A stretch of DNA of 64,000 bases from Roseobacter sp. GTDB taxonomy: Bacteria; Pseudomonadota; Alphaproteobacteria; Rhodobacterales; Rhodobacteraceae. The notes beneath the pieces are model-generated. The model was not told the DNA's origin and did no database searches. It was given only the letters and a program-made list of their open reading frames with translations. The position numbers and the translations under genes are program-made. Location: positions 1 to 64,000 of the forward strand of contig JADFAE010000016.1 of NCBI GenBank assembly GCA_015665415.1, given 5' to 3'. This document shows, piece by piece, positions 6,320 to 33,918 of this stretch (positions are counted from its first letter, which is position 1; the number at the start of each line of letters is the position of its first letter).

Positions 6320-6712
6320 ATGAAGAAAATCATCACTTTTGCGGCGTTCGCAAGCGCCCTGACTGCCTGTGCGCCAGTTTCGCCTTATGATGCATGTGTA
6401 GGATCTGCAAATTCCGAAGTCCGATCTTTAAAAAGAGAAAAAGACCATATTCTGGAAAAAATCTCACGCGGGTATGAGACAGCAGAACGAGAAGTCGCTA
6501 GGCCTGTCAAAACCGTGTGTTACAATCAGTGGATCGGCTCATACTCCTGCGAGAAAACACAGATAGTTACTGAAACATATAGTGTTCCTGTCGATCTCAC
6601 AAAGGAGAGACAGCGGCTGGAAATATTTGAAAGAGAACTTCAAAGAGCAAGACAAGTCGCAAACGCAAAAATCCAAAATTGTGAGGGCCTTTCACGTATA
6701 GTTCCTGAATAA
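6320..6712 (+). CDS. Small putative lipoprotein, unknown function
   Basis: This 130-aa protein has a short lipoprotein signal (MKKIITFAAFASALTAC) with lipobox LTAC, so Cys17 would be lipidated. The mature part is charged and helical (EVRSLKREKDHILEKISR; TKERQRLEIFERELQRARQV). It has a central segment with a likely disulfide (TVCYNQWIGSYSCEK) and a last Cys near the end. Base composition is clearly more AT-rich than that of uvrB or the YdcF gene, which suggests acquisition. A 31-nt block shared with the 26.7-kb repeats begins at its stop codon. I do not recognise the family. Confidence 0.75.
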   Translation: MKKIITFAAFASALTACAPVSPYDACVGSANSEVRSLKREKDHILEKISRGYETAEREVARPVKTVCYNQWIGSYSCEKTQIVTETYSVPVDLTKERQRLEIFERELQRARQVANAKIQNCEGLSRIVPE

Positions 6713-6758
6713 GCGCTTTCCCGGGGGGAAGGTCAGGCGCGGCCCGCTTTGCGGGCCA
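6712..6758. repeat. Copy of the repeat block found at 26.7 kb, with hairpin
   Basis: Bases 6712-6742 match 26765-26795 at 30 of 31 positions (AGCGCYTTCCCGGGG, then GGAAGGTCAGGCGCGG). The block runs straight into a 7-bp perfect hairpin, GGCCCGC-TTT-GCGGGCC. The equivalent position in each 155-bp unit also holds a GC hairpin (GGGCC-TGGC-GGCCC). It lies between the lipoprotein stop and the YdcF start, so it could also act as a terminator. Confidence 0.8.
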
Positions 6759-6786
6759 GGCCGAGACCCTGAACAGAGAGATTTCT

Positions 6787-21972: not shown

Positions 21973-22171
21973 ATCAGTCAATATCTATTAAAATTGCTAC
22001 CAAACGACAAACAAGGCCCGTGAGCAAGACATGAAAGTCCCTCTGCCTCATATGCGGCCCTGCAGCATTCCACGTCTTCCGCCCACTTTGGGGCAGCCTG
22101 ACGCCACTAAAATGTAGCGCTGCAAAGGGCCGACAAAAAGGCATATCTGGGATCATTTTCGGCGCAGCGCG

Positions 22172-22783
22172 TTAAACCAGCGTCTCCGACCAGCCGCCCT
22201 TGGCCCGGATCGCGGTTGAGCTGGCCGCCACCATCGGCACATTGACAAAACACCAGGCCGGGGCAGTTGCGCGCGCCAAAAGCTGGCTTTGGCTGTCTTT
22301 CAGCATCTGCCCGCGATAGATCCGCGCCGCGCGCGACAGCCGCGCCGAGATCCTGTCGCCGGGGCGGGCCAGCACTCCGATGGGCACGGTTTCCATGATC
22401 TGCTGCCAATCTTTCCAGCGGTGAAAATGCGCCAGATTATCCGCTCCCATCAGCCAGACAAAGCGCACCCCCGGGTGCCGTCGGCGCAGATGTCGCAGGG
22501 TCTGGGCAGTATAGCGCGTGCCCAGCTGGGCCTCGATGTCGCTGATCTGGACGCGTGGGTTTGTGACCAGCGCCGCGCTCGCCGCAATCCGGCGCTGCAA
22601 GGGCGCGGGTTGGCGGGATTTCAGAGGGTTGCCGGGCGAGACCAGCCAGACCAGATGATCCAACCCAAAGCGCTGCATAGCGGCCTCAGAGATCGCCGCA
22701 TGACCCTGATGCGGCGGGTCAAAGGACCCTCCCAGCAGCCCGACACTTTGGCCCGGGCGGATATGCGGCAATCTGCAAACCAT
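22172..22783 (-). CDS. nadD: Nicotinate-nucleotide adenylyltransferase
   Basis: NadD converts nicotinate mononucleotide and ATP to deamido-NAD. The 203-aa protein has the nucleotidyltransferase motif [11 protein letters not shown] near the start, the substrate motif [16 protein letters not shown] and the second ATP motif near the C-terminus ([14 protein letters not shown], an SSTxIR variant). Of several in-frame ATGs, 22783 is chosen because it follows CAAGG and puts the GGSFDPPH block at the usual distance. The nearby nadE (39.4 kb) acts two steps on in the same pathway. Confidence 0.95.
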
Positions 22784-22891
22784 AACGGCCTTGATGCACA
22801 TAGTTTTTCGGGAAATCAATCGGCTACTTACAGGTCCGATACCTTTCGCAACCAACATCTTGAACAGCAAAAAGGCCCCGGCGGGAAAGGA

Positions 22892-23752
22892 TCATACAAA
22901 GGGTATATTAGATTTATCCAAGCGTGGAAAATCACACCGGTGCATAAAGAAATACCCTTTCAAATACCGATTGATCTTCGCCACATCGACATTGGGACCA
23001 GCCAAGATACACTTTATTCCTAGTGGGTAGGCCAGGTCCTTATAGATCTCATCCCCATGCAAACTGAGCAGCAGTTTCTTTCGAAACTCGCCTCCCACTT
23101 CTGCAAAGCATCCGATTCTCCGATCTAGCGAGCCAAAACCACCGGCACATACCATTCGAGATTCTTCTTCCTCTCGAAAATACCAATTTTTCTGAAACCA
23201 TATATACTTACGAAGTCGTTCGACCCATTCAGAATGGGCTTTAGCATTCAACTCAGCCCCCAACAGCGCATTGCCCAACTGAGGTACAGGTCCGCTTTCG
23301 TATGCGACATCTTTCGGTCCTTCAAACCCCGAAGCCTTCGCAAGTGTGCTCAGATCACTCTCGTTGAACCCGATTGCAACTGGCATACCACCATTGCCAA
23401 GTTTCCCGTACCCTCGCCACATAGACAAACTATCCTTGGCGCAGGAGAAACTCACGACCTGACCGTTCAGCCGCGTTTCGAGATCCATCAGAATCCCCTC
23501 TTCAAAGGCAATCAATTCAGTGGTTTTCCGATCAGTTGATATACTCCCCTCCCCATAGAATTTCCTCAAGGTAGAGAGGCCTGTGCGGAATTCATTTCTG
23601 TCGTTGAGCGCTTCGAAATCACTTGCCAACAGGGACTTCGACTGCAAAATCTGGGTCAACGTCTCGAACGTGGTGTAGTGCCAAAGGATTTTATTGTCTG
23701 TCACCTGATCTGTCCTGATTGCAAAAATCCAAGGAATGGAAGTGCGATTCAT
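22892..23752 (-). CDS. DUF2971 family protein, accessory
   Basis: This protein of about 286 aa matches DUF2971. LWHYTTFETLTQILQSKSLLASDFEALNDRNEF is the family hallmark (H-Y-T, then S-L-L-x-S, then L-N-D-x-x-E), and VVSFSCAKDSLSMWRGYG and MPVAIGFNES follow in the usual order. The family's biochemical role is unknown; such genes are often found in variable genome regions. Codon use and AT content differ from neighbouring nadD and ettA, suggesting acquisition. The ATG at 23752 follows GAGAG; another ATG at 23797 and a TTG at 23803 are alternatives. Confidence 0.82.
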   Translation of the reverse strand: MNRTSIPWIFAIRTDQVTDNKILWHYTTFETLTQILQSKSLLASDFEALNDRNEFRTGLSTLRKFYGEGSISTDRKTTELIAFEEGILMDLETRLNGQVVSFSCAKDSLSMWRGYGKLGNGGMPVAIGFNESDLSTLAKASGFEGPKDVAYESGPVPQLGNALLGAELNAKAHSEWVERLRKYIWFQKNWYFREEEESRMVCAGGFGSLDRRIGCFAEVGGEFRKKLLLSLHGDEIYKDLAYPLGIKCILAGPNVDVAKINRYLKGYFFMHRCDFPRLDKSNIPFV

Positions 23753-24092
23753 ACTCTCAACCAAAATCAGAGCAATCACTTTCCCCTTGCATCCCATCTC
23801 CAAACAAAAAATCTGCGCCTAACTATCAGAGGGCTAATAGCGCCTGCATTCGCCAATGCCCGTGCACAGCACGGGCAGCGCCCGAACCGCCCCCACGGGG
23901 CGGGCGCTTAGCGCCCTTCCCTCGGTTCGGTCGCAGGGGGCATGGCACCCGCCGCAGGATAGGAGTGCACTGGTGGTGTACGGAGGGTGCATCCCGATCA
24001 CCCCAGCTCTGCGCTGCATCCTGCATTGCCCCCTGCCCCCGCATCCGCTATCACACCAGCCAGCACGAATTCCCCCATCATGGAGCAGTCAC
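23753..24092. other. Intergenic region with GC hairpins before ettA
   Basis: I see no gene in this stretch. It changes sharply from AT-rich (to about 23850) to GC-rich. It holds the hairpin CCCGTG-CACAG-CACGGG-type at about 23860-23875 and palindromes such as GCGCTTAGCGC near 23910. These may mark the edge of inserted DNA. Confidence 0.5.
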
Positions 24093-25760
24093 ATGGCCGC
24101 CTATCAATACGTCTACCACATGCAGGGTGTCTCCAAGACCTACCCCGGTGGCAAGAAATGCTTTGAAAACATCCACCTCTCCTTTCTGCCCGGCGTGAAA
24201 ATCGGTGTGGTCGGGGTCAACGGCGCTGGTAAATCCACCCTGATGAAGATCATGGCCGGCCTCGACAAGGATTTCACCGGCGAGGCCTGGGCCGCCGAGG
24301 GCGCCAAAGTCGGCTATTTGCCGCAGGAGCCCAAGCTGGACGAGAGCCTGACAGTGCGTGAAAACGTCATGCTCGGCGTCAAGGACAAGAAAGACAAGGT
24401 CGACCGGTTCAACCAGATCGCCGTCGAGATGGCGGAGAACTACACCGACGAGCTGATGGAAGAGATGACCGCGCTGCAGGACGCCATCGATGCGGAAAAC
24501 CTCTGGGATCTGGACAGCCAGATCGACATCTCCATGGAAGCCCTGCGCTGCCCCCCAGATGACGCCGCGATCGCCAATCTCTCGGGCGGTGAAAAACGCC
24601 GGGTGGCCCTGTGCAAACTGTTGCTCGAAGCGCCAGAGATGCTGCTGCTTGATGAGCCGACCAACCACCTGGACGCCGAGACCATCGCCTGGCTGCAACA
24701 GCACCTGATCGACTACAAAGGCACCATCCTCTGCGTCACCCACGACCGCTATTTCCTGGATGACATCACCAGCTGGATCCTCGAGCTCGACCGCGGCAAG
24801 GGCATCCCCTACGAGGGCAACTACTCTGCCTGGCTGGAGCAAAAGGCCAAGCGCCTGGAGCAGGAGGCCCGCGAGGACAAATCCAAGCAGCAGACCCTGC
24901 AGCGCGAACTCGACTGGATGCGCCAGGGCGCCAAGGCCCGCCAGGCCAAATCCAAGGCCCGGATCAACGCCTATAACGATCTGGCCGAACAGTCAGAGCG
25001 CGAAAAGCTGACCCGTGCCCAGATCGTCATCCCCAATGGCCCACGTCTGGGCAGCAAGGTGATCGAGGTCGAAGGTCTGGCCAAGCATTATGGCGACAAG
25101 CAGCTGGTCGAGGGCCTCTCCTTTGATCTGCCCCCAGGCGGCATCGTCGGCGTCATCGGCCCCAACGGCGCCGGTAAATCCACCCTGTTCCGCATGCTGA
25201 CCGGCCAGGAACAGCCCGACAGCGGCTCTGTCTCTTATGGCGACACCGTCAAACTGTCCTATGTGGATCAGTCCCGCGATGATCTGAAAGACAATGAAAC
25301 CGTCTGGGAAGCCATCTCTGGGGGGGCCGAAATCATCGAGCTGGGCGACGCACAGGTGAATTCGCGCGCCTATTGCTCCTCGTTCAACTTCAAGGGCGGC
25401 GATCAGCAGAAACCGCTGAACCTGCTGTCGGGTGGTGAGCGAAACCGCGTGCACATGGCGCGTCTGCTGAAAGAGGGCGGCAACGTGCTGCTGCTCGATG
25501 AGCCGACCAACGATCTGGACGTGGAAACCCTGCGCGCCCTCGAAGATGCGCTGGTGGATTTTGCCGGCTGCGCCGTGGTGATCTCTCACGACCGTTTCTT
25601 CCTCGACCGGATCTGCACCCATATGCTGGCCTTTGAAGGCGACGCCCATGTGGAGTGGTTCGAAGGCAACTTTGAGGACTACGAGGAAGACAAGAAGCGT
25701 CGTTTGGGTGCCGACGCGCTGGAGCCCAAGCGCCTGAAGCACAAGAAGTTTGTGCGGTAA
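24093..25760 (+). CDS. ettA: Energy-dependent translational throttle protein EttA (ABC-F ATPase)
   Basis: EttA binds the ribosomal E site and couples translation to the ATP/ADP ratio. The 555-aa frame is a twin ABC-F ATPase: first Walker A GVNGAGKST, signature NLSGGEKRRVALCK, Walker B LLLDEPTNHLD. A linker of charged helices (KRLEQEAREDKSKQQTLQREL) precedes the second set, GPNGAGKST, LLSGGERNRVHMARLL and LLLDEPTNDLDVE. The ATG at 24093 gives the usual MAAYQYVYHMQGV start. Length and the lack of membrane segments fit EttA. AT-rich accessory genes flank it on both sides. Confidence 0.95.
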   Translation: MAAYQYVYHMQGVSKTYPGGKKCFENIHLSFLPGVKIGVVGVNGAGKSTLMKIMAGLDKDFTGEAWAAEGAKVGYLPQEPKLDESLTVRENVMLGVKDKKDKVDRFNQIAVEMAENYTDELMEEMTALQDAIDAENLWDLDSQIDISMEALRCPPDDAAIANLSGGEKRRVALCKLLLEAPEMLLLDEPTNHLDAETIAWLQQHLIDYKGTILCVTHDRYFLDDITSWILELDRGKGIPYEGNYSAWLEQKAKRLEQEAREDKSKQQTLQRELDWMRQGAKARQAKSKARINAYNDLAEQSEREKLTRAQIVIPNGPRLGSKVIEVEGLAKHYGDKQLVEGLSFDLPPGGIVGVIGPNGAGKSTLFRMLTGQEQPDSGSVSYGDTVKLSYVDQSRDDLKDNETVWEAISGGAEIIELGDAQVNSRAYCSSFNFKGGDQQKPLNLLSGGERNRVHMARLLKEGGNVLLLDEPTNDLDVETLRALEDALVDFAGCAVVISHDRFFLDRICTHMLAFEGDAHVEWFEGNFEDYEEDKKRRLGADALEPKRLKHKKFVR

Positions 25761-25776
25761 GGGTTGCGTTGAAAAA

Positions 25777-25827
25777 CTGACACCACATATGTTTGTTGCT
25801 AAATAAACTCTAATTATGTGGTGTCAG
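25777..25827. repeat. 13-bp perfect inverted repeat ahead of an orphan gene
   Basis: CTGACACCACATA (25777-25789) and TATGTGGTGTCAG (25815-25827) are perfect inverted arms around a 25-bp AT-rich loop, 17 bp after the ettA stop. The right arm ends 2 bp before the TTG taken as the next gene's start. It could be a terminator without a T-run, an operator, or the end of an inserted segment. Confidence 0.6.
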
Positions 25828-25829
25828 TA

Positions 25830-26717
25830 TTGGGCGAAGCCAAACGCAGAAAAGACAGTGACCCTTATTATGGGAAGATACCGAAGTCTGGAAAAGGCCT
25901 TATAATCAGCCCTCCAATGGAAATAGACGGCACTCGCATTTTCATTCGAAACTCAGAACTAGATCCTATTGAACTCCGACGCAGCATTCTATTTTGGGAC
26001 AGACTTGTTTGGCCACAAAACAACGGCCTACATTTGGCAAACTCCATTGAAGCCGACTTTCTCGAAGCGGCCAACATTCTTGAACGCCCCGAGTATCGAC
26101 TCAATGGGGATGTAGCCACGGGGATAGCGGAGAGCTTCCTGCACTCATATTTTGAGAAGGAAAGACGCGAACCCGGCCAATGGTCGCTTTCGACCGGTGA
26201 CAACTCGCTTGTGTTAAAATCGCAAAACATTTCTACTGGACGCGGCGCATCCGTCGATCTTTTCCGTTCGATCCCAATTCCAGAGCATGACGTTCCCTTA
26301 GAGGAAATCCTTAGGTTCAAAGATCAGCGACTCAGTGAAGTCAGGTGTTTGGTAGTGGCCATTGATGAGTTCTATTCCAGTTGGACTAGTGCTGAGGACA
26401 AAGCTCATCAGTTAGACTTGGCAAAACGCAAAATTGAACAAGCCTGTATAGACATGGTGAAGGTTGCCAAAGAAGACCAAAACAAGTTTCGACTTTCAAA
26501 CTGGAAAGTGGGATTTGGCCTGAATGCACTGGGTATTTTGGGTGCAGCAGAAATAGGTGGTAGAATTGGTCAGAACTTTGGCTTTGAAGGGCTTGGGCAG
26601 ATACTAGGTGGTGCAGCTTCAACAATGTCTCTTTCTAATGACATTGGTTTCAAAAATCAGAGAGATTCCAGTTCTCCATTCAAATTCGCAGCCTCACTGG
26701 AACTTGATACTATCTGA
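25830..26717 (+). CDS. Orphan protein of unknown function, accessory
   Basis: From the TTG at 25830 (295 aa) the protein begins MGEAKRRKDSDPYYGK, an N-terminus seen in several uncharacterised bacterial families. A longer reading from GTG at 25818 would start inside the inverted repeat. The body continues KGLIISPPMEIDG, FIRNSELDPIELRRSILFWDRLVWP (reminiscent of DUF6236, not certain) and mixed helices. The last 70 residues are Gly-rich and hydrophobic (VGFGLNALGILGAAEIGGRIG; GLGQILGGAAS), which might insert in membranes. It is AT-richer than all neighbours. Three 155-bp repeats follow. Confidence 0.72.
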   Translation: MGEAKRRKDSDPYYGKIPKSGKGLIISPPMEIDGTRIFIRNSELDPIELRRSILFWDRLVWPQNNGLHLANSIEADFLEAANILERPEYRLNGDVATGIAESFLHSYFEKERREPGQWSLSTGDNSLVLKSQNISTGRGASVDLFRSIPIPEHDVPLEEILRFKDQRLSEVRCLVVAIDEFYSSWTSAEDKAHQLDLAKRKIEQACIDMVKVAKEDQNKFRLSNWKVGFGLNALGILGAAEIGGRIGQNFGFEGLGQILGGAASTMSLSNDIGFKNQRDSSSPFKFAASLELDTI

Positions 26718-26741
26718 TTTCAACCTCTTGATAAGGCCCGT

Positions 26742-26791
26742 GCCTGACCTTGGGGAGGTGCAAAAGCGCCTTCCCGGGGGGAAGGTCAGGC
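26742..26791. repeat. Inverted half-copy making a hairpin at the left edge of the repeats
   Basis: GCCTGACCTT (26742-26751) is the exact reverse complement of AAGGTCAGGC (26782-26791) at the start of the first 155-bp unit. A possible inner stem AAGCGCCTTCCC / GGGAAGG lies between. This can act as a terminator for the orphan gene or mark the repeat boundary. Confidence 0.6.
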
Positions 26792-27245
26792 GCGGGCCTG
26801 GCGGCCCAGGGACATGCCCGCAACCGTCGCCTTCCAAAGCAACCTGCACCAGCGTTGGGCTCCGCCTGTCCACACTTCAAACAGTGTCCCACACTGTTTG
26901 TCCCTGCGGGAACCAGCGTGAACTCCACGGGGGGGGAAGGTCAGGCGCGGGCCGTGCGGCCCAGGTACATGCCCGCAGCCGTCACCTTCCAAAGTAGCCT
27001 GCACCAGCGAAGGGCTCCGCCCGTCCACACTTCAAACAGTGTCCCACAATGTTTGTCCCTGCGGGAACCAGTGCGAACTCCACGGGGGGGGAAGGTCAGG
27101 CGCGGGCCTGGCGGCCCAGGGACAAGCCCGTAACCGTCACCTTCCAAAGCAGCCTGCGCCAGCGAAGGGCTCCGCCCGTTTGAACCTCAAACAGTGCCCC
27201 GCACTGTTTGCCGCTGCGCGGACCGGTTCCAACTCCACGCCGGAG
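26781..27245. repeat. Three tandem 155-bp repeats with conserved hairpins
   Basis: Units begin with GAAGGTCAGGCGCGGGCC at exactly 26781, 26936 and 27091, so the period is 155 bp twice; the third copy decays at its end near 27245. Each unit has a GC hairpin (GGGCC-TGGC-GGCCC or GGGCCG-TG-CGGCCC). Each also has a hairpin AAACAGTGT-CCC-ACACTGTTT, which becomes AAACAGTGC-CCC-GCACTGTTT in copy 3, a compensatory pair change. TCCC-TGC-GGGA follows in copies 1 and 2. The period is not a multiple of three, so no protein can span the units. It is probably a non-coding structured repeat. Confidence 0.9.
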
Positions 27246-27369
27246 GCAAACCTGCATTCCGACCACCTTTACCCATCCACAAAACCCGACAATTTGCCTT
27301 TTCGCCGCCCTGCGTTACCCTGCCAGTGTTCCTGTTACCCAGTTCATTCCTGTGTTTGAAAGGCCCCCC

Positions 27370-27744
27370 ATGCCCATATCCGAAGCAGACATCACCACCA
27401 AGGTCGAAGCCACCAAGGGCAAAAAGGCCAAGCGCAAAAAGCTGACAACCGCGCCCGAGGGCACCAAGGGGCGCAAACTGCCCGGTGATCTGCGCAAGGG
27501 ACTTGAGGCGCATTTCTCCAGCGCCAAGCTGGCGCGGGTTCAGGTGCATGTGGGCGGTAATGCCAAGGAGCTCTGCAAAGAGCTGAAAGCCAAGGCCTTT
27601 ACCATCGGCAATGATATCTATTTTGCCAAACCCGGAGATGCCAAGAACACCGACCGGCTGGTGCATGAGCTCGCCCATGTGTTGCAGCAGGGCCGCGGTA
27701 AGATGCCCAAGCCAAAGGAGGGCGAAGCGCTGGTGTCAAAGTGA
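27370..27744 (+). CDS. Small DUF4157 (eCIS-core) metalloprotease-like protein
   Basis: This 124-aa protein has a basic N-terminal third (KGKKAKRKKLTTAPEGTKGRK) followed by a compact DUF4157 domain. LEAHFSSAKLARVQVHVGG, KAKAFTIGNDIYFAKPGD and RLVHELAHVLQQG are seen, with zinc-peptidase motif HELAH. DUF4157 is enriched near extracellular contractile injection systems and polymorphic toxins, where it probably acts as a self-processing peptidase. Here it stands alone with no toxin or tail genes. The ATG at 27370 follows GAAAGG. Short length suggests a minimal or remnant form. Confidence 0.85.
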   Translation: MPISEADITTKVEATKGKKAKRKKLTTAPEGTKGRKLPGDLRKGLEAHFSSAKLARVQVHVGGNAKELCKELKAKAFTIGNDIYFAKPGDAKNTDRLVHELAHVLQQGRGKMPKPKEGEALVSK

Positions 27745-27935
27745 CCCGCCACAGATCTGCTAGAGGCCAGCTGCCGCCCCGTCAGGCGAAACAGGCCACC
27801 TAAAACAAGCAGGTTTCAGCCGCCCTGCCCCCATCTTTCAAGGTTTGAACAAAATCTTAACTTTTTCTTCCTGTAGTAAAGCCTCGGACCAGCGTTAGGC
27901 TGGACCCGCGTCCTGACCCCAGAGGGAGAGAAGCC

Positions 27936-28163
27936 TTGGCCTTTGTTGGCATCATGTTTGGATCACTTGTTGGCCTGATCTCGGCCGTGACAGGCTTTGC
28001 ACTCTTTGATCTGAGCCTCGGGCACAGCCTGGTGGTCTATGCGACGACCGGCGTTGGATTCGCGCTGCTAACCATCCTGGCGCTGCTGTTGCGCCCACCT
28101 TCTGGGCCAAAATCGAAAATCCCAGCCGATCATCCTGTCAGCTATGTTCCCAGCCCTGCCTAA
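27936..28163 (+). CDS. Small two-helix membrane protein
   Basis: This 75-aa protein starts with TTG at 27936 behind a strong GGGAGAG. It has two hydrophobic helices (IMFGSLVGLISAVTGFALF and LVVYATTGVGFALLTILALLL) and a short polar, Pro-rich tail. It is probably an inner-membrane protein. I do not recognise a family. It converges with trxC, leaving a gap of 4 bp. Confidence 0.7.
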   Translation: MAFVGIMFGSLVGLISAVTGFALFDLSLGHSLVVYATTGVGFALLTILALLLRPPSGPKSKIPADHPVSYVPSPA

Positions 28164-28167
28164 GACC

Positions 28168-28596
28168 CTATAGCGCCTTTACCCAGGCGGAAATCTGGCC
28201 TTCGCGCAGCGCGCCCGACTGGCGCTTTTTCTCCTTGCCGCGCACAAACCCCACCAGCGTCGGGATACCCTTGATCCGATACCGCGCCCCGGTAGAGCCA
28301 TGGCGCTGCGTGTCCAATTTGACCAAGCGCGCCTGTCCTGTCAGCTTTTTTGCTGCCTTGGCGTACTCCGGCCCCATCATCTTGCAAGGGCCACACCAGG
28401 GTGCCCAAAAATCCACCACCAGCGGCAGATCGTCATTTTGCATCGCTTTTTGCAACACTGCCGGATCCACATCAACCGGCTGCCTGGACAGCAGTGACGC
28501 TCCACAGCTGCCGCATTTGGCCCCCGACATCAACTTGTCCTCTGGTACCCGGTTCAGCTGGGCACAGCTCAGACAGGTGAGCGTTTTTGCTCCCAT
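28168..28596 (-). CDS. trxC: Thioredoxin 2 (TrxC)
   Basis: TrxC is a zinc-binding thioredoxin that reduces protein disulfides and is often induced by oxidative stress. The 142-aa protein has an N-terminal zinc ribbon (CLSC and CGSC) and the thioredoxin active site WAPWCGPCKMM, then the cis-Pro loop GIPTLVGF. The ATG at 28596 follows GGAG. All four zinc cysteines and both active-site cysteines are present. Confidence 0.95.
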   Translation of the reverse strand: MGAKTLTCLSCAQLNRVPEDKLMSGAKCGSCGASLLSRQPVDVDPAVLQKAMQNDDLPLVVDFWAPWCGPCKMMGPEYAKAAKKLTGQARLVKLDTQRHGSTGARYRIKGIPTLVGFVRGKEKKRQSGALREGQISAWVKAL

Positions 28597-28730
28597 AGTG
28601 GATCTCCAGTTACTTGACCCCGCCGGATATAAGGCCCCAGAGCCAGACCGCAAGACATGACCCATGCTTGACCCACAGCCACCTGCGACGCAAACTGGAT
28701 GTATTCAATGTTCCTTACCGTGAGGCCCAG

Positions 28731-29306
28731 ATGTTTTCGCGCCGCGCATTTACCACAACTGCCCTTGCGGCCCTTTCCACCACATCCGTGACCGGGCTGT
28801 CGGCTCCGGCCCTGGCCAAAGCCATCCCGGAATTTGATCCAACGCCGCAATTTGTTCGGATAAAAAAGCAATTCCTGCCGGGGGAGCTGTTGATCCTGCC
28901 GCAATCCTACTACCTGTATTTTGTCACCGAGAAACGTAAGGCCATCCGTTATGGCGTTGGTGTTGGCAAGGCCGGGCTGGAATTCACCGGCTCTGCCATT
29001 ATCGAACGCAAACGGGAATGGCCCAGCTGGCGCCCGACCCAAGAGATGATCGAGCGCAGCCCCAGGACCTATGGCCGCTTTGCCGACAATGACTACATAC
29101 AACCCGGTGGCCCCAAGAACCCATTGGGGGCCCGCGCGCTCTATCTGTACAAAAACGGCGTCGACACCTATTTCCGCATCCATGGCACCACCCAGCCCGA
29201 AACCATCGGCTCGTCCGCCTCAAACGGGTGCATCCGGATGCTGAACGAACATGTCATCGATCTCTATGAACGGGTGCCTTTGGGCACCAAGGTCACCGTG
29301 CTCTAG
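28731..29306 (+). CDS. L,D-transpeptidase (YkuD family)
   Basis: YkuD enzymes form 3-3 cross-links in peptidoglycan or attach proteins to it. The 191-aa protein has a Tat-like signal (FSRRAFTTTALAAL ... APALA). The catalytic motif is HGTTQPETIG followed by SSASNGCIRM, with the nucleophilic Cys in S-x-G-C-I/V-R. It is periplasmic. The ATG at 28731 gives the signal peptide; upstream in-frame sequence has none. With dacB and rodA/mrdA it belongs to the wall-building set of this window. Confidence 0.93.
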   Translation: MFSRRAFTTTALAALSTTSVTGLSAPALAKAIPEFDPTPQFVRIKKQFLPGELLILPQSYYLYFVTEKRKAIRYGVGVGKAGLEFTGSAIIERKREWPSWRPTQEMIERSPRTYGRFADNDYIQPGGPKNPLGARALYLYKNGVDTYFRIHGTTQPETIGSSASNGCIRMLNEHVIDLYERVPLGTKVTVL

Positions 29307-29583
29307 ACTGGCCCCGGTCGCCGCAACCAAATGCAGCTAGGCGACATCTCCAAGGGCAAAGACCCGCAAAACCACAGCTGCTAGTCGACTTTCGGTTCCG
29401 GACGCGACATTTTCCCCGCGAATTTTTCTTGCGTGACGCGGTCTTCTGTCCAATGCTGTCCTCGCCAGGGGATGAAACTGTTCGCATGCCTCCCTGTTTG
29501 CAGGGACTTGCCAGCAGATTGCCCAGGCCAGACTGTCGCATGTTGCGGGCAGCCCTTGAGAGAAGAGACTAGGAGAAGAGACG

Positions 29584-29790
29584 ATGGCTACTGGCACCGT
29601 CAAGTGGTTCAACACAACAAAAGGCTTCGGCTTTATCGCCCCCGATGATGGCGGCAAGGACGTATTTGTTCACATTTCCGCCGTCGAGCGATCTGGCCTG
29701 ACCGGCCTCGCAGACAACCAAAAAGTAAGCTACGAAATGCAACCCGGTCGGGATGGCCGTGAATCCGCCGTGGACCTCGCGCTGCTCTAA
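29584..29790 (+). CDS. Cold-shock protein, CspA family
   Basis: This 68-aa single-strand RNA/DNA-binding OB-fold protein has RNP1 KGFGFI and RNP2 VFVHIS. It acts as an RNA chaperone. The ATG at 29584 follows AGGAGAAGAG. The 277 bp upstream (29307-29583) hold no gene and could include the long 5' leader usual for cold-shock mRNAs. A strong terminator follows. Confidence 0.96.
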   Translation: MATGTVKWFNTTKGFGFIAPDDGGKDVFVHISAVERSGLTGLADNQKVSYEMQPGRDGRESAVDLALL

Positions 29791-29813
29791 GCTGCCAGGA
29801 TTTACCCCTTCTG

Positions 29814-29840
29814 GCGGCCCCTGTTCTTGGGGCCGCTTTT
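29814..29840 (+). terminator. Rho-independent terminator of the cold-shock gene
   Basis: An 8-bp perfect stem GCGGCCCC / GGGGCCGC with a 7-nt loop is followed by TTTT, 24 bp past the stop codon. Confidence 0.88.
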
Positions 29841-29900
29841 GCATGCGCCCGAGCAATGCAAACGAGGGTTTGCGGGCAAAGAGGCAGCTTGCCCGAGGGC

Positions 29901-30557
29901 TCAGGGCTCTTGCGAAATACGTTCTGCCAATTGCAGAATCACGGGCCCCAAGGCCGCGACATTCAACGCTACCCCTTTGGCATTTGGATGAATATTGTCG
30001 GCCTGCATATAGGCCTGGGCTGCAGCTGGGTCGGTCCCTGCAACAGCGCGAATACCGGCAAAGGCATCGCGGTGTAAAAGCGCGTTGAACTCTGCCGCCA
30101 GATCTCCATAGATCGCATCAAAATTCTCTTTGTATTCAGGTCCGTAATTGCCCGGCGCCTGCATCCCGATCAACAAGATCTCAATGCCTTTGCCTTGGGT
30201 TGTCTGCAGAATGCGGCGCAGGTTGGCCTCTGCCTGATCGGGCTGCAACCCGCGCAGCATGTCATTGCCCCCCAACAGTACAATCAGCCCCTGCGGCTGA
30301 TCCGCCAGGGTCCAGTCAATCCGGGCGGCACCGCCCGCAGTGGTATCGCCCGAGACCCCGGCATTGCTCAGCGTCAAGTCCAGCCCCTGCGCCTGCGCCC
30401 ACTGATCCAACTGCGGCACCAGACCCTCGCCCTGTGCCAGCCCATAGCCCTGCACCAAACTGTCGCCAAAAACGGTCACCCTCAGGCTTTCGGCCCGTAC
30501 CGGCACCGCCACCGCAACAAAAATAAAAATTCCCAACAGGGCCCAAACCTTGCGCAT
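29901..30557 (-). CDS. tesA: TesA-like arylesterase/lysophospholipase (SGNH hydrolase)
   Basis: This is a periplasmic SGNH hydrolase acting on acyl esters and thioesters. The 218-aa protein has a Sec signal peptide (VWALLGIFIFVAVAVPVRA). Block I is VFGDSLVQGYG (catalytic Ser), block II Gly is in GVSGDTTAGG, block III is LGGNDMLRG (Asn), and block V is DNIHPN (Asp and His). The gene is divergent from ybbA-ybbP, the same neighbourhood as in Escherichia coli. Confidence 0.93.
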   Translation of the reverse strand: MRKVWALLGIFIFVAVAVPVRAESLRVTVFGDSLVQGYGLAQGEGLVPQLDQWAQAQGLDLTLSNAGVSGDTTAGGAARIDWTLADQPQGLIVLLGGNDMLRGLQPDQAEANLRRILQTTQGKGIEILLIGMQAPGNYGPEYKENFDAIYGDLAAEFNALLHRDAFAGIRAVAGTDPAAAQAYMQADNIHPNAKGVALNVAALGPVILQLAERISQEP

Positions 30558-30607
30558 CGCCGCAAATGCTCCATATCCGATAGAGTATAATCAACAGGCG
30601 CGGCTTC

Positions 30608-31339
30608 ATGACTGAAACAGATCACCCCGTTCTTCACCTCAAAGATGCGTCTTTGACCCTGAATGGCAATACCGGGCCTGTACGAATTTTGCAGGATATT
30701 TCGCTGGAGGTCACCAAAGGTGAGACCCTGGGCCTGATTGGCCCCTCGGGTTCGGGGAAATCCTCGCTGCTGATGCTGATGGGAGGGTTGGAACTGGCCA
30801 CCGGTGGGCAGATCACCGCCCTGGGACAGGATCTGACCCGAATGGACGAAGATGCGCTGGCACGGTTTCGTCGCGACCACATGGGCGTCGTCTTCCAAAG
30901 CTTTCACCTGATCCCCACCATGACCGCCCTGGAAAATGTCGCCACCCCACTAGAGCTTGCCGGGCGGCGCGATGCCTTTGACATCGCCCAGGCCGAACTC
31001 GAAGCCGTGGGGCTGGGCCATCGGGCCGGCCATTTCCCGGCCCAACTGTCGGGCGGAGAGCAACAGCGCGTGGCCCTGGCGCGCGCCCTCGCCCCACGGC
31101 CGGCGATCCTGCTGGCGGATGAACCCACCGGAAATCTCGACGAGGCCAATGGCGCTGCGGTGATGGATCTGCTCTTTGGTCTGCGCGACCGCTACGAGGC
31201 CACCCTGATCATGGTCACCCATGCGCCGGAACTGGCGGCCCGCTGTGACCGGGTGGTCCGCCTGCGCGATGGCCGCCTGAGCGAAGCGGACGAGCCGCCT
31301 CACATCGCAACCGGGACCGCTACTGAGGCGGCCGAATGA
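30608..31339 (+). CDS. ybbA: ABC transporter ATP-binding protein, YbbA type
   Basis: This 243-aa ATPase of the LolD/MacB-like group has Walker [12 protein letters not shown], signature [15 protein letters not shown], Walker [13 protein letters not shown] and the His switch in VTHAPELA. With the next gene it forms a MacB-like mechanotransmission pair rather than a classical importer. The stop overlaps the ybbP start by 4 bp (ATGA), so translation is coupled. The substrate is unknown. Confidence 0.94.
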
Positions 31340-33918
31340 CGGCCCAATCCGGCGCGCCAGCCGAGCCCCCCCAAACCTCCAAGCCCCAGATGTCGACTGG
31401 CACCTCTTTTCGCCTGGCCTGGCGCTTTGCGCTGCGCGAATTGCGCGGCGGCGTCAAAGGGTTCCGCATCTTCCTCGCCTGCCTTGCCCTGGGCGTTGCC
31501 GTTATTGCCGCCATCGGTTCCATCCGCGCCTCGATTGAGGCCGGGCTGACTCAGGAAGGAGCCAGCTTGCTGGGCGGCGACGCGGAAATGACATTCACCT
31601 ATCGTTTTGCCAATGACGAAGAACGCGCCTGGATGGCGGACCACGCCCTTGCGGTCTCTGAGGTGGTGGAGTTCCGCTCTATGGCCACCCTCGGTGATGA
31701 GCGTGGCCTGACTCAGGTCAAAGCCGTGGATACCGCCTATCCGCTGGCGGGTACGCTGCGTCTTGAACCCGACATGCCCCTGAGTGACGCATTGGCTGGC
31801 GACGGCACCTTACCCGGTGTGGCAATGATGCCGGTGCTGGCCGATCGCCTCGGCCTGTCTCCCGGCGACACTGTTCGGTTCGGCACCCAGGATTTTGTGC
31901 TGATGGCCACCATCAAGACAGAACCCGACGCCGCCGCTTCCGGCTTTGCCCTGGGGCCGCGCACCCTGGTTGCTTTGCCTGCCCTTGAAAATTCCGGCCT
32001 GCTGGCACCCGGTTCGCTGTTTTCCACAAAATACCGCCTCACCCTGCCCTCAGAGACCGATCTCGACGCGCTTCAGACCGAGGCCCGGGCCCAGTTCGAA
32101 GACAACGGCATGCGCTGGCGCGATGCCCGCAACGGGGCCCCGGGGATTGCCACTTTTGTTGAACGTCTGGGAGGATTTTTGGTGCTGGTTGGACTGTCCA
32201 GTCTGGCCGTGGGTGGTGTTGGTGTCTCGGCTGCGGTGCGCGCCTATCTGGCCACCAAAACCGAGACCATCGCCACGCTGCGCACATTGGGGGCCGAACG
32301 GCAGGTGATCTTTCTCACCTATTTTCTGCAGATTGGTGCATTGACCCTTTTGGGCGTCACCCTGGGGCTGATCCTGGGTGGATTGGGCCCTGTGTTTCTG
32401 GGACCACTGATTGCGGCGCAACTGCCCTTCCCTGCCGTCTTCTCGCTCTATCCCTCGACACTGCTGGAGGCCGCACTCTACGGCTTTCTCACCGCCTTCA
32501 TCTTTGCGCTATGGCCCCTGGCCCGGGCGGAGCGCATCCGTGCCGCCTCACTGTTTCGCGGTGCCATGGGCGATGTCAGCCGCTTGCCCGCCCTGCGATA
32601 TGTGCTGACCACGGTGCTGGCTCTGGCGGTTCTGGTTGGCTCCGCCGCTTGGTTCTCCGGCTCGGCTGAACTGACGCTCTGGACCGCTGGCGGCCTGATG
32701 GGCGCCCTGGCTGTGCTGCTGGTGGCGGCCCTGGGCCTGGGCTGGCTGGCACGGCGCGGTACAACTGCCACCCGGGGCCGCCCCGCCCTGCGCTGGGCCC
32801 TGGCCGCCATTGGCACCTCTCGCGATGGCGCAGTGCCTGCGGTGCTGGCCTTGGGGCTTGGACTGACCGTACTGGCCGCCATTGGTCAGATTGATGGCAA
32901 TATGCGCCGCGCCATTGCGGGCAACCTGCCCGATGTCGCGCCCTCCTACTTCTTTGTCGACATCCAGCGCGATCAGATGCCCGACTTCCTCAATCGGGTA
33001 GAAAATGATCCCGCCGTCAGCAAAGTGGAAAGCGCTCCGATGTTGCGCGCGGTGATCACCAAGATCAACGGCACCCCGGCGCAAGAGGTCGCAGGCGATC
33101 ACTGGGTTGTACGGGGGGATCGCGGTGTCACCTATGCCGCGGCCCAGCCCAAAGGCACCGAAGTGGTGGCCGGCAGCTGGTGGCCCGAGGATTACACCGG
33201 CCCGCCCCAAGTCAGCTTTGCCGCTGAGGAAGCCGAAGAACTGGGGCTAAGCCTTGGCGACACCATCACTCTCAATGTGTTGGGGCGTGATATCCAGGCC
33301 AAGATCACCAGTTTTCGCAATGTCGATTTCTCCACTGCGGGCATGGGTTTTGTGCTGACCCTGAATGAGGCCGCCCTGGCCGGAGCACCGCATAGTTTCA
33401 TCGCCACGGTCTATGCCGAAGCCAGCTCGGAGGCGCAGATCCTGCGTGATCTGGCCCGCCAGATGCCCAATATCACCGCCATCCGGGTGCGCGATGCCAT
33501 TGACCGGGTTTCGGATATTCTGCGCCAACTGGCCGCCGCCACCGGCTATGGGGCCGCCGCCACGCTGCTCACCGGGTTTCTGGTTCTATTGGGCACCGCC
33601 GCAGCAGGCGAGCCTGCCCGCCGCTATGAGGCTGCCCTGCTGAAAACCCTGGGAGCCTCGCGCAGTCGGATCCTGGCCAGCTTTGCCCTGCGTTCGATCA
33701 TTCTGGGGGCCGGTGCTGGCTGTGTCGCTCTCAGCGCTGGTATCGCCGGAGCCTGGGCCGTCAATCTCTATGTGTTTGAAACGGCTTACGTGGTGATCTG
33801 GCCCAATGCGCTTGCAGTCATTTCAGGCGGGGTGATGGTCACGCTGCTGGCCGGGTTGATCTTTGCCTGGCGCCCCCTGGCTGCCCGCCCGGCCCGCATC
33901 CTGCGCGCCCGCGAATAG
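31336..33918 (+). CDS. ybbP: ABC transporter permease, YbbP type (FtsX-like)
   Basis: This 860-aa inner-membrane protein is built from two FtsX-type permease units. There is an N-terminal helix (ACLALGVAVIAAIGS), a first large periplasmic domain, transmembrane segments around residues 280-520, a second periplasmic domain (RNVDFSTAGMGFVLTLNEA) and a C-terminal transmembrane bundle ending near residue 850. It partners YbbA. The order tesA, ybbA, ybbP is conserved widely and suggests a role near lipid or lipoprotein metabolism, still undefined. Confidence 0.93.
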   Translation: MTAQSGAPAEPPQTSKPQMSTGTSFRLAWRFALRELRGGVKGFRIFLACLALGVAVIAAIGSIRASIEAGLTQEGASLLGGDAEMTFTYRFANDEERAWMADHALAVSEVVEFRSMATLGDERGLTQVKAVDTAYPLAGTLRLEPDMPLSDALAGDGTLPGVAMMPVLADRLGLSPGDTVRFGTQDFVLMATIKTEPDAAASGFALGPRTLVALPALENSGLLAPGSLFSTKYRLTLPSETDLDALQTEARAQFEDNGMRWRDARNGAPGIATFVERLGGFLVLVGLSSLAVGGVGVSAAVRAYLATKTETIATLRTLGAERQVIFLTYFLQIGALTLLGVTLGLILGGLGPVFLGPLIAAQLPFPAVFSLYPSTLLEAALYGFLTAFIFALWPLARAERIRAASLFRGAMGDVSRLPALRYVLTTVLALAVLVGSAAWFSGSAELTLWTAGGLMGALAVLLVAALGLGWLARRGTTATRGRPALRWALAAIGTSRDGAVPAVLALGLGLTVLAAIGQIDGNMRRAIAGNLPDVAPSYFFVDIQRDQMPDFLNRVENDPAVSKVESAPMLRAVITKINGTPAQEVAGDHWVVRGDRGVTYAAAQPKGTEVVAGSWWPEDYTGPPQVSFAAEEAEELGLSLGDTITLNVLGRDIQAKITSFRNVDFSTAGMGFVLTLNEAALAGAPHSFIATVYAEASSEAQILRDLARQMPNITAIRVRDAIDRVSDILRQLAAATGYGAAATLLTGFLVLLGTAAAGEPARRYEAALLKTLGASRSRILASFALRSIILGAGAGCVALSAGIAGAWAVNLYVFETAYVVIWPNALAVISGGVMVTLLAGLIFAWRPLAARPARILRARE

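Follow-up and report, generated by a model that had tools for sequence, protein, structure and literature searches.

Folded palindromic repeats bordering a slot for cargo genes downstream of ettA and of parE in Rhodobacteraceae

Introduction

What is a threefold tandem repeat doing behind ettA, the gene for the ABC-F ATPase called the energy-dependent translational throttle protein, in a Roseobacter genome? The repeat lies in a window of 64,000 nt—the whole stretch of DNA that was analyzed, contig JADFAE010000016.1, positions 1 to 64,000—and a preliminary description, made from the letters alone, took the interval 26742–27245 for a structured RNA or a mobile non-coding element. The meaningful feature is wider than that interval, and begins at the stop codon of ettA, at 25760. 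On balance we lean, by a little, toward the view that the array is a mosaic of palindromes, similar to BIMEs, that forms the right edge of a slot behind ettA, and that the 'cargo' genes in this slot are exchanged by homologous recombination. Position, fold and cargo turnover are the firmest parts of this account; how the turnover comes about, and whether the array serves a purpose, are the weakest. Among the top-ranked open-licence literature we found no account of the repeat, or of an ettA/parE cargo slot, in Rhodobacteraceae.

The array and its parts

The repeats had been described as three copies with an exact period of 155 bp, and Tandem Repeats Finder and repeat finding bear this out. The 155-nt units start at 26781, 26936 and 27091, spaced exactly 155 nt apart. 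Tandem Repeats Finder reports a period of 155, 3.0 copies, 88% matches, no indels and a score of 711; repeat finding places the copies at 26776, 26931 and 27086, with the later two 92 and 84% identical to the first. Agreement across the three units is far above chance. Ahead of them, at 26734–26751, is an 18-nt inverted copy of the unit start—the inverted half-copy noted earlier at the left end—and 26734–26799 is thus a 66-nt palindrome, which we call the cap. Its outer arms (26734–26751 and 26782–26799; 18 nt each, 94% complementary) enclose a nested hairpin, and by palindrome, folding and alignment it is the left border of the array, on the forward strand. It folds more stably than its shuffles (z −7.6 as RNA, −6.7 as DNA); for the complete array, as RNA, z is −3.2.

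Two elements that can occur apart make up each unit: half A, of 76 nt, which starts as the right arm of the cap, and half B, of about 79 nt. Both are on the forward strand, A at 26781–26856, 26936–27011 and 27091–27166, and B at 26857–26935, 27012–27090 and 27167–27239. Within B is a hairpin, P2 (26878–26900, 27033–27055 and 27188–27210), and the third copy of B has the top covariance-model score in the genome, 95.9 bits. In relatives the halves occur as A-B-A, as B-A, or as B alone, and A varies in length. The fold of half A (26781–26856) is no more stable than that of shuffled versions of it (z 0.5 as RNA, 0.0 as DNA).

To the left of the cap is the slot. Its left edge is ettA, a core gene (24093–25760, forward strand; NCBIfam TIGR03719, 944 bits against a cutoff of 807), and it extends from the ettA stop codon to the cap (25761–26733; 973 nt, GC 0.45). 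One AT-rich gene lies within it, placing the array 3′ of ettA with a single gene between: a forward-strand ORF of 299 aa at 25818–26717 that belongs to DUF6236 (Pfam PF19749, E 4.6e-19).

A fold conserved by compensatory changes

The P2 pairs are as the preliminary description had them: the closing pair is T-A in copy 1 and C-G in copy 3, and in copy 2 one pair is broken. The pattern extends beyond the window, to an alignment of 38 B copies, 35 of them distinct, from this genome and its relatives. Given this alignment as its only input, RNAalifold draws a three-way junction preceded by a short hairpin, and eight of the pairs have changed on both sides; the second small GC hairpin, also said to keep its fold, covaries here too. 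B comprises about 71 nt, 23 pairs and four helices, and in the named, slightly longer structure pairing holds in 94.8% of cells. The covariation score is 0.290, compared with a shuffled mean of 0.127, a value that none of 500 shuffles reaches, and it is 0.055 or lower when partners are slid. Two simpler counts do not clearly exceed the shuffles: 10 double-change pairs (reached by 47 of 500) and 16 further pair types (reached by 499 of 500). Because the B sequences are related, none of these shuffle counts is a probability. The three copies in the window have RNA fold z values of −1.9, −0.6 and −4.0; copies 2 and 3 alone give the junction, and the optimal RNA fold of copy 1 alone is a different one.

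Covariation need not imply RNA. Compensatory changes can also be produced by template-switch repair of palindromes, and the fold of B may serve in RNA or in single-stranded DNA. In Rfam, a tRNA is the sole match in the window, and a scan of 26700–27300 returns one chance match of 6.2 bits, against a cutoff of 50 bits (E 4.8). Covarying B is a class of palindrome absent from Rfam 15, and one for which there is now a usable covariance model.

Position behind ettA and parE

One more array, and no third, was found in this genome: on contig C4, from 215080 to ∼215400, it follows parE (TIGR01055, above cutoff). Its layout is the same, with a DUF2971 gene as the AT-rich gene ahead of it. The unit was matched in 11 of 12 genomes of the genus and in nine of 394 of the family, this genome counted in both and two candidates scored per genome in the latter. 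Twenty-two loci with arrays or array remnants were compared, two of them from this genome; nine are behind ettA and 13 behind parE, and in all 22 the array is on the same strand as the core gene. Two further unit matches (G265 and G152) are inside genes that appear, by eye, to be of IS256 type.

The fixed orientation, along with the fold and covariation of B, could mean that the array is transcribed as a 3′ structured RNA on the ettA and parE messages—an mRNA 3′-end stabilizer, a terminator or an array of small RNAs—and tandem structured RNAs are known. We think this unlikely. A consensus scan of the array finds neither an intrinsic, U-tract terminator nor a sigma-70-type promoter, and the fold has no Rfam family. 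In five slots, moreover (L045, L048, L049, L052 and L063), a hairpin-plus-T sequence resembling a terminator can be seen by eye directly after ettA, ahead of the cargo. The intrinsic terminator was dropped as an identity for the array on the result of the same scan.

The cap has a wider distribution than the array. Named genomes were scanned for the core of the cap by an exact pattern that diverged caps escape, and this returned 50 stretches with 51 caps, in records that include Leisingera, Phaeobacter, Tritonibacter and Pseudophaeobacter. Thirty-one of these caps have ettA (13) or parE (18) directly upstream. Neither was detected directly upstream of the other 20, five of which have less than 700 nt of upstream sequence. 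Two of the 20 are probably parE loci: L085 carries the cargo of a known parE locus, and in L114 the gene that follows parE is found, by eye, downstream. The remainder lie behind other genes, and an AT-rich gene is present at some of them and lacking at others. A strong B (at least 40 bits) lies beside 18 of the 31 ettA/parE caps, leaving 13 with none adjacent, and in the other group beside only L085, L093 and L114; L093 has a B array and cargo, and the core gene is absent from the stretch examined.

Several observations belong beside these counts. In the window itself, an AT-rich gene for a lipoprotein-like protein of 130 aa (6320–6712, GC 0.44) comes after a gene that appears, by eye, to be uvrB, and a half-cap palindrome (6711–6760) ends it, a further instance of the gene-plus-cap layout. 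Upstream of ettA, a reverse-strand gene of 303 aa (22892–23803) adjoins what looks by eye like nadD; it resembles DUF2971 by eye, has no match in NCBIfam, and may be another cargo gene of defense type. One record, JAHVJD010000002.1, is titled Nocardioides marinus, and inside it is a Rhodobacteraceae parE slot (L073); the title is probably wrong.

Contents of the slot

Slots were compared at 45 loci: the 22 above, and 23 of the 31 ettA/parE caps in named genomes (the other eight are duplicates). From stop codon to cap they measure 58–1715 nt, with a median of 799 nt and a median GC of 0.46, and 42 contain an ORF of 90 aa or more, for a total of 45 ORFs. The gene in the slot is low in GC and usually different between species. 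By blastp, only 11 of the 990 pairs of cargo ORFs match (E 1e-4), and elsewhere at the same loci only four of 461 windows of 600 nt fall below GC 0.50. Between genomes, homology ends at the stop codon of the core gene unless the cargo is common to both. The right junction is sharp at the cap, where homology resumes in close pairs such as L057/L059, L052/L054, L056/L058 and L053/L061; in some pairs it returns only past the array. The cargo usually differs between species, and both edges are kept. The border depends on neither the presence of the cargo nor its strand: the cargo is reversed in four of 42 slots, with the border still oriented like the core gene, and L045 has a gap of 58 nt, no cargo, and a border nonetheless. 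The array is one boundary of the slot for cargo genes behind ettA, and of its counterpart behind parE.

Over the 45 cargo ORFs, Pfam finds 19 families (E 0.001). DUF2971 occurs in three, and DUF4238 and DUF4357 in two each. Domains that occur once include GmrSD_N, HEPN, putAbiC, RelA_SpoT, SduA (Shedu), AHJR-like and RusA, and also Imm11, DMP19, DUF7946/7947, a nucleoside deoxyribosyltransferase-like domain, DUF6236 and others. Several are of defense-type families—Shedu, NsnA/GmrSD, AbiP-like, TIR-like and RelA/SpoT. Many others have no family; in one scanned set, nine of ten had none above the cutoff. PADLOC assigns nine of 30 cargo proteins scanned singly (of the 45) to its classes (NsnA/PD-T4-2, AbiP, TIR effector, SduA and candidate classes), compared with two of 20 neighboring proteins, a modest excess that is no more than suggestive of a link with defense.

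Individual cargo genes have scattered distributions. The DUF6236 gene in the window has homologues in two of 383 other genomes searched in the family. Among 20 homologues examined of a DUF4357 gene that lies behind ettA, the best and third best are behind ettA as well, in other genera. The stretches with the other 18 contain neither core gene, and several of these are, by eye, between moaC- and moeA-like genes.

Tandem structured repeats that adjoin toxin-like or defense-like genes also bring to mind type III toxin–antitoxin systems, in which RNA repeats that belong to a single toxin gene precede it; the array would then be an antitoxin or decoy RNA for the cargo. We find this hardly credible here. 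The same kind of border accompanies unrelated cargo, cargo on either strand, and an empty slot, and the array is downstream of most cargo, that in the window included; on such grounds the type III antitoxin was ruled out.

The slot itself is more widely distributed than the array. In genera negative for the array by profile, 56 parE and ettA loci with at least 450 nt downstream were collected, two loci of our own and two truncated ones having been dropped. The first 600 nt after the stop codon are at least 10 GC points lower than the core gene in 21 of 56, as against three of 55 upstream (Fisher p 5e-5), and the three upstream cases are low downstream, too. Fifteen of these loci were read, and in most an AT-rich ORF comes after the core gene. 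A slot evidently does not need the array, since AT-rich slots are found in genera that have none.

Copies elsewhere

Neither element is specific to the slot by itself, and this counts against the reading that we favor: 20 of the 51 caps, as above, lack a detected ettA or parE immediately upstream, and the covariance model of B finds 10 matches in this genome, six of them outside both arrays. The cap occurs at ∼8 places in the genome, some partial. At E 0.01 the model matches all 12 genomes of the genus; at E 0.001 it matches 63 of 198 in the family. In a class-wide sample it matches three of 289—this genome and two others of its family. So far as was searched, the cap/A and B palindromes appear confined to Rhodobacteraceae. 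All 18 genus matches listed above 85 bits (G340:C24 among them) are at the ettA/parE slot, and weaker ones are elsewhere. Outside the genus, a copy of 93 bits is in an IS256-type gene (G020); G080 has one of 89 bits and G098 one of 85.

Some copies are inside genes. B is in frame in IS256-type genes of L277 and L018 and in a DUF6330 gene of L302, and frameshifted in L017. In L302 (2965–3237), on the conjugative Sulfitobacter plasmid NZ_CP085148.1, it is an insert of ∼21–23 residues, and the Pfam match to DUF6330 spans the part of the protein that comes after it. Among plasmids, 59 records from Rhodobacterales genera match part of the array and none covers 80% of the query; among the matches listed, ten records cover 15% each. 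A phage collection gave no match to the array. No Y1 transposase of the RAYT type (PF01797) was found in this genome, by a search that was positive in five of 14 control genomes.

B-like elements also occur in tandem, four times with a period of 152 in G145 (L269), four times at ∼71 in G066 (L270) and five times at 72 in G058 (L271). In G340 and G188, B-like hairpins, identical within each genome, are beside or inside what appear by eye to be IS3-type transposase genes (L265, L266, L267 and L268). The same B-like repeat occurs at two places in G000 (L262, C2:31200–34700, and L263, C2:126400–129900) with identical flanking ORFs as far as visible; this is a duplicated block, or a duplication in the assembly.

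Because cap and B occur elsewhere, B even in frame within genes, the array is best regarded as a mosaic of Rhodobacteraceae palindromes. Exclusivity to ettA and parE was dropped as an idea, the cap alone being dispersed and B present in IS elements and plasmid genes. The original reading, a structured RNA or a mobile non-coding element, is partly supported. The fold is conserved, and covariation among homologues as well as further copies, two of the things whose lack was to count against it, were found; mobility is indicated on comparative evidence, since the non-coding repeats are dispersed in the genome, some of them inside genes.

Could it be, then, that these are selfish or relic palindromes, akin to REPs, that accumulate at an intergenic place tolerant of them, with the slot independent of them and the array of no function to it? 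The dispersal of B and cap, the tandem copies elsewhere, the in-frame insertions (two in IS256-type transposase genes, one in a DUF6330 gene), and the AT-rich slots that lack an array all speak for this. The concentration at the ettA/parE slot of all 18 listed genus matches above 85 bits does not, nor does an orientation that follows the core gene in 22 of 22 loci. Nor do the compensatory changes that keep the fold, although repair of quasi-palindromes by template switching can yield these. We hold this reading to be possible, with more doubt than confidence, and it is compatible with the account of the slot given by the BIME-like mosaic.

It is quite improbable, we think, that the cargo travels in a mobile unit of attC-like or MITE-like kind, with cap and array at one of its ends and its recombinase encoded elsewhere. 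An AT-rich gene with a cap does occur behind other genes (L074, L075, L079, L108, and window 6320–6760), and the right junction is sharp. But no conserved left end was seen, by eye, after the stop codon of the core gene in the slots compared; the border stays when there is no cargo, and is indifferent to cargo strand; and the Y1 (RAYT-type) transposase is absent from this genome.

Signs of recombination

On the reading that we favor, a new cargo gene would enter when imported DNA recombines by homology with the chromosome of the recipient, with the conserved core gene as the left arm, and the border and the conserved DNA downstream as the right. Some alignments have this look. L010 and L053 share their cargo, and are 79–92% identical over the body of parE, 95% at its 3′ end, and 90–97% in the cargo; identity then drops to 86 and 59% through the array, and beyond it is 61–87%, with 13 of 18 windows at 71–84%. 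In L057/L059 and L053/L061 the cargo differ, and identity is 91–97% in parE near the stop codon, 89–97% directly past the array, and mostly lower farther out. High identity in the right flank is absent from L052/L054.

The core genes tell a similar story when divided into sixths and compared at the third positions of same-residue codons. Within the genus the last sixth is the most alike, both in parE (0.75, versus 0.65–0.71; last above first in 28 of 28 pairs) and in ettA (0.82, versus 0.72–0.78; 14 of 21 pairs). Between genera it is not the highest, and the last exceeds the first in 30 of 45 and 113 of 253 pairs. These gradients are support, not proof, because the pairs are few and non-independent and the genes differ in constraint. 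Together they suggest, from alignments, that cargo turns over by homologous recombination.

A precedent exists in the double homologous recombination, at core genes that flank hotspots free of mobile elements, that is described in the part of PMC5635113 concerned with such hotspots. The donor DNA could come from gene transfer agents (GTAs), or from other transfer of short fragments; GTA genes are well conserved in Rhodobacterales, according to the relevant part of PMC9836097, and GTAs might be suppliers of slot DNA. The palindromes, for their part, would be retained, in the manner of REPs, at places where an insertion does no harm, and may shield or terminate the transcripts of the slot. A bolder proposal, and in our opinion a rather improbable one, is that the border is an active docking site, at which the folded single strand, or the repeats as recombination arms, would raise the rate of capture and exchange of single defense genes behind ettA and parE. 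Were it true, cassettes would be taken up here without a dedicated integrase, from DNA brought in by GTAs or a similar transfer of short fragments.

Comparison with known systems

With REPs and BIMEs the array shares dispersed palindromes that form clusters, here with A and B alternating. It differs in that B is a four-helix element of ∼71 nt rather than a single palindrome of 20–40 bp, and in its link to a cargo slot. Rickettsia palindromic elements lie within protein genes, too, in frame, as B does in three of four cases (L277, L018 and L302); the likeness noted here is one of insertion habit, and the strongest B copies of the genus, in contrast, are in intergenic arrays. CcsR or 'cuckoo' RNAs, whose hairpin loops are CU-rich and of anti-Shine–Dalgarno type, were ruled out: the loops of P2 are TCCCA, CCCCG and similar, and there is no Rfam match.

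CGTC-tagged palindromes, as portrayed in the part of PMC3733652 devoted to them, are short, dispersed, extragenic REPs, often 3′ of genes and also grouped in tandem; the CGTC type is the prevalent one in alphaproteobacteria, and a dedicated transposase seems to be absent. Of the 38 B sequences, 23 have CGTC at positions 11–14 and 11 have CGTT, between helices and not at an end. A RAYT-mobilized GTAG REP was ruled out, there being no Y1 transposase and no terminal GTAG on B. STAXI, in the account given in part of PMC2864571, is a structured motif in two or three tandem repeats, whose active form might be RNA or single-stranded DNA; it is a pseudoknot near genes for DNA manipulation, whereas B folds as a three-way junction and is found behind ettA and parE.

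As regards the slot, hotspots without a recognized mobile element have the same rapid turnover of cargo beside conserved core genes. Here, however, there is mostly one gene per slot, the family has two slots that recur, and the border is an array of structured repeats. The core defense hotspots of Pseudomonas aeruginosa keep defense-type genes at a set chromosomal place, in the portion of PMC10250203 that treats them, and differ from ours, as there portrayed, in our single-gene contents and palindrome border. Integrons, which have an integrase in cis and one attC per cassette, and Tn7-like elements, which use a core-gene attachment site and carry tns genes between paired ends, were considered and seem unlikely. 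No integrase was apparent by eye among the ORFs of window 22000–32000, and each slot has one border, retained when the slot is empty; the slots are 58–1715 nt long, and by eye their left end is not conserved. Mentions of parE in one paper on Tn7 cargo (PMC8649781) refer, where they occur in the text available, to the ParE toxin.

What the slot offers

Unless we misread the evidence, then, the slot has the ettA stop codon as its left edge and the array as its right, and a twin behind parE. The interest of this is mainly in the slot rather than the repeat. What began as a repeat curiosity becomes a map coordinate: a short, predictable slot behind ettA and parE in Rhodobacteraceae, occupied mostly by one gene, of a defense-type or unnamed family, and, in many cases, easy to locate by the sequence of the cap. 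How hotspots without an integrase swap their contents, and whether structured repeats at the edge help, can now be put to the test, and the slots are a route to candidate single-gene phage defenses of marine bacteria.
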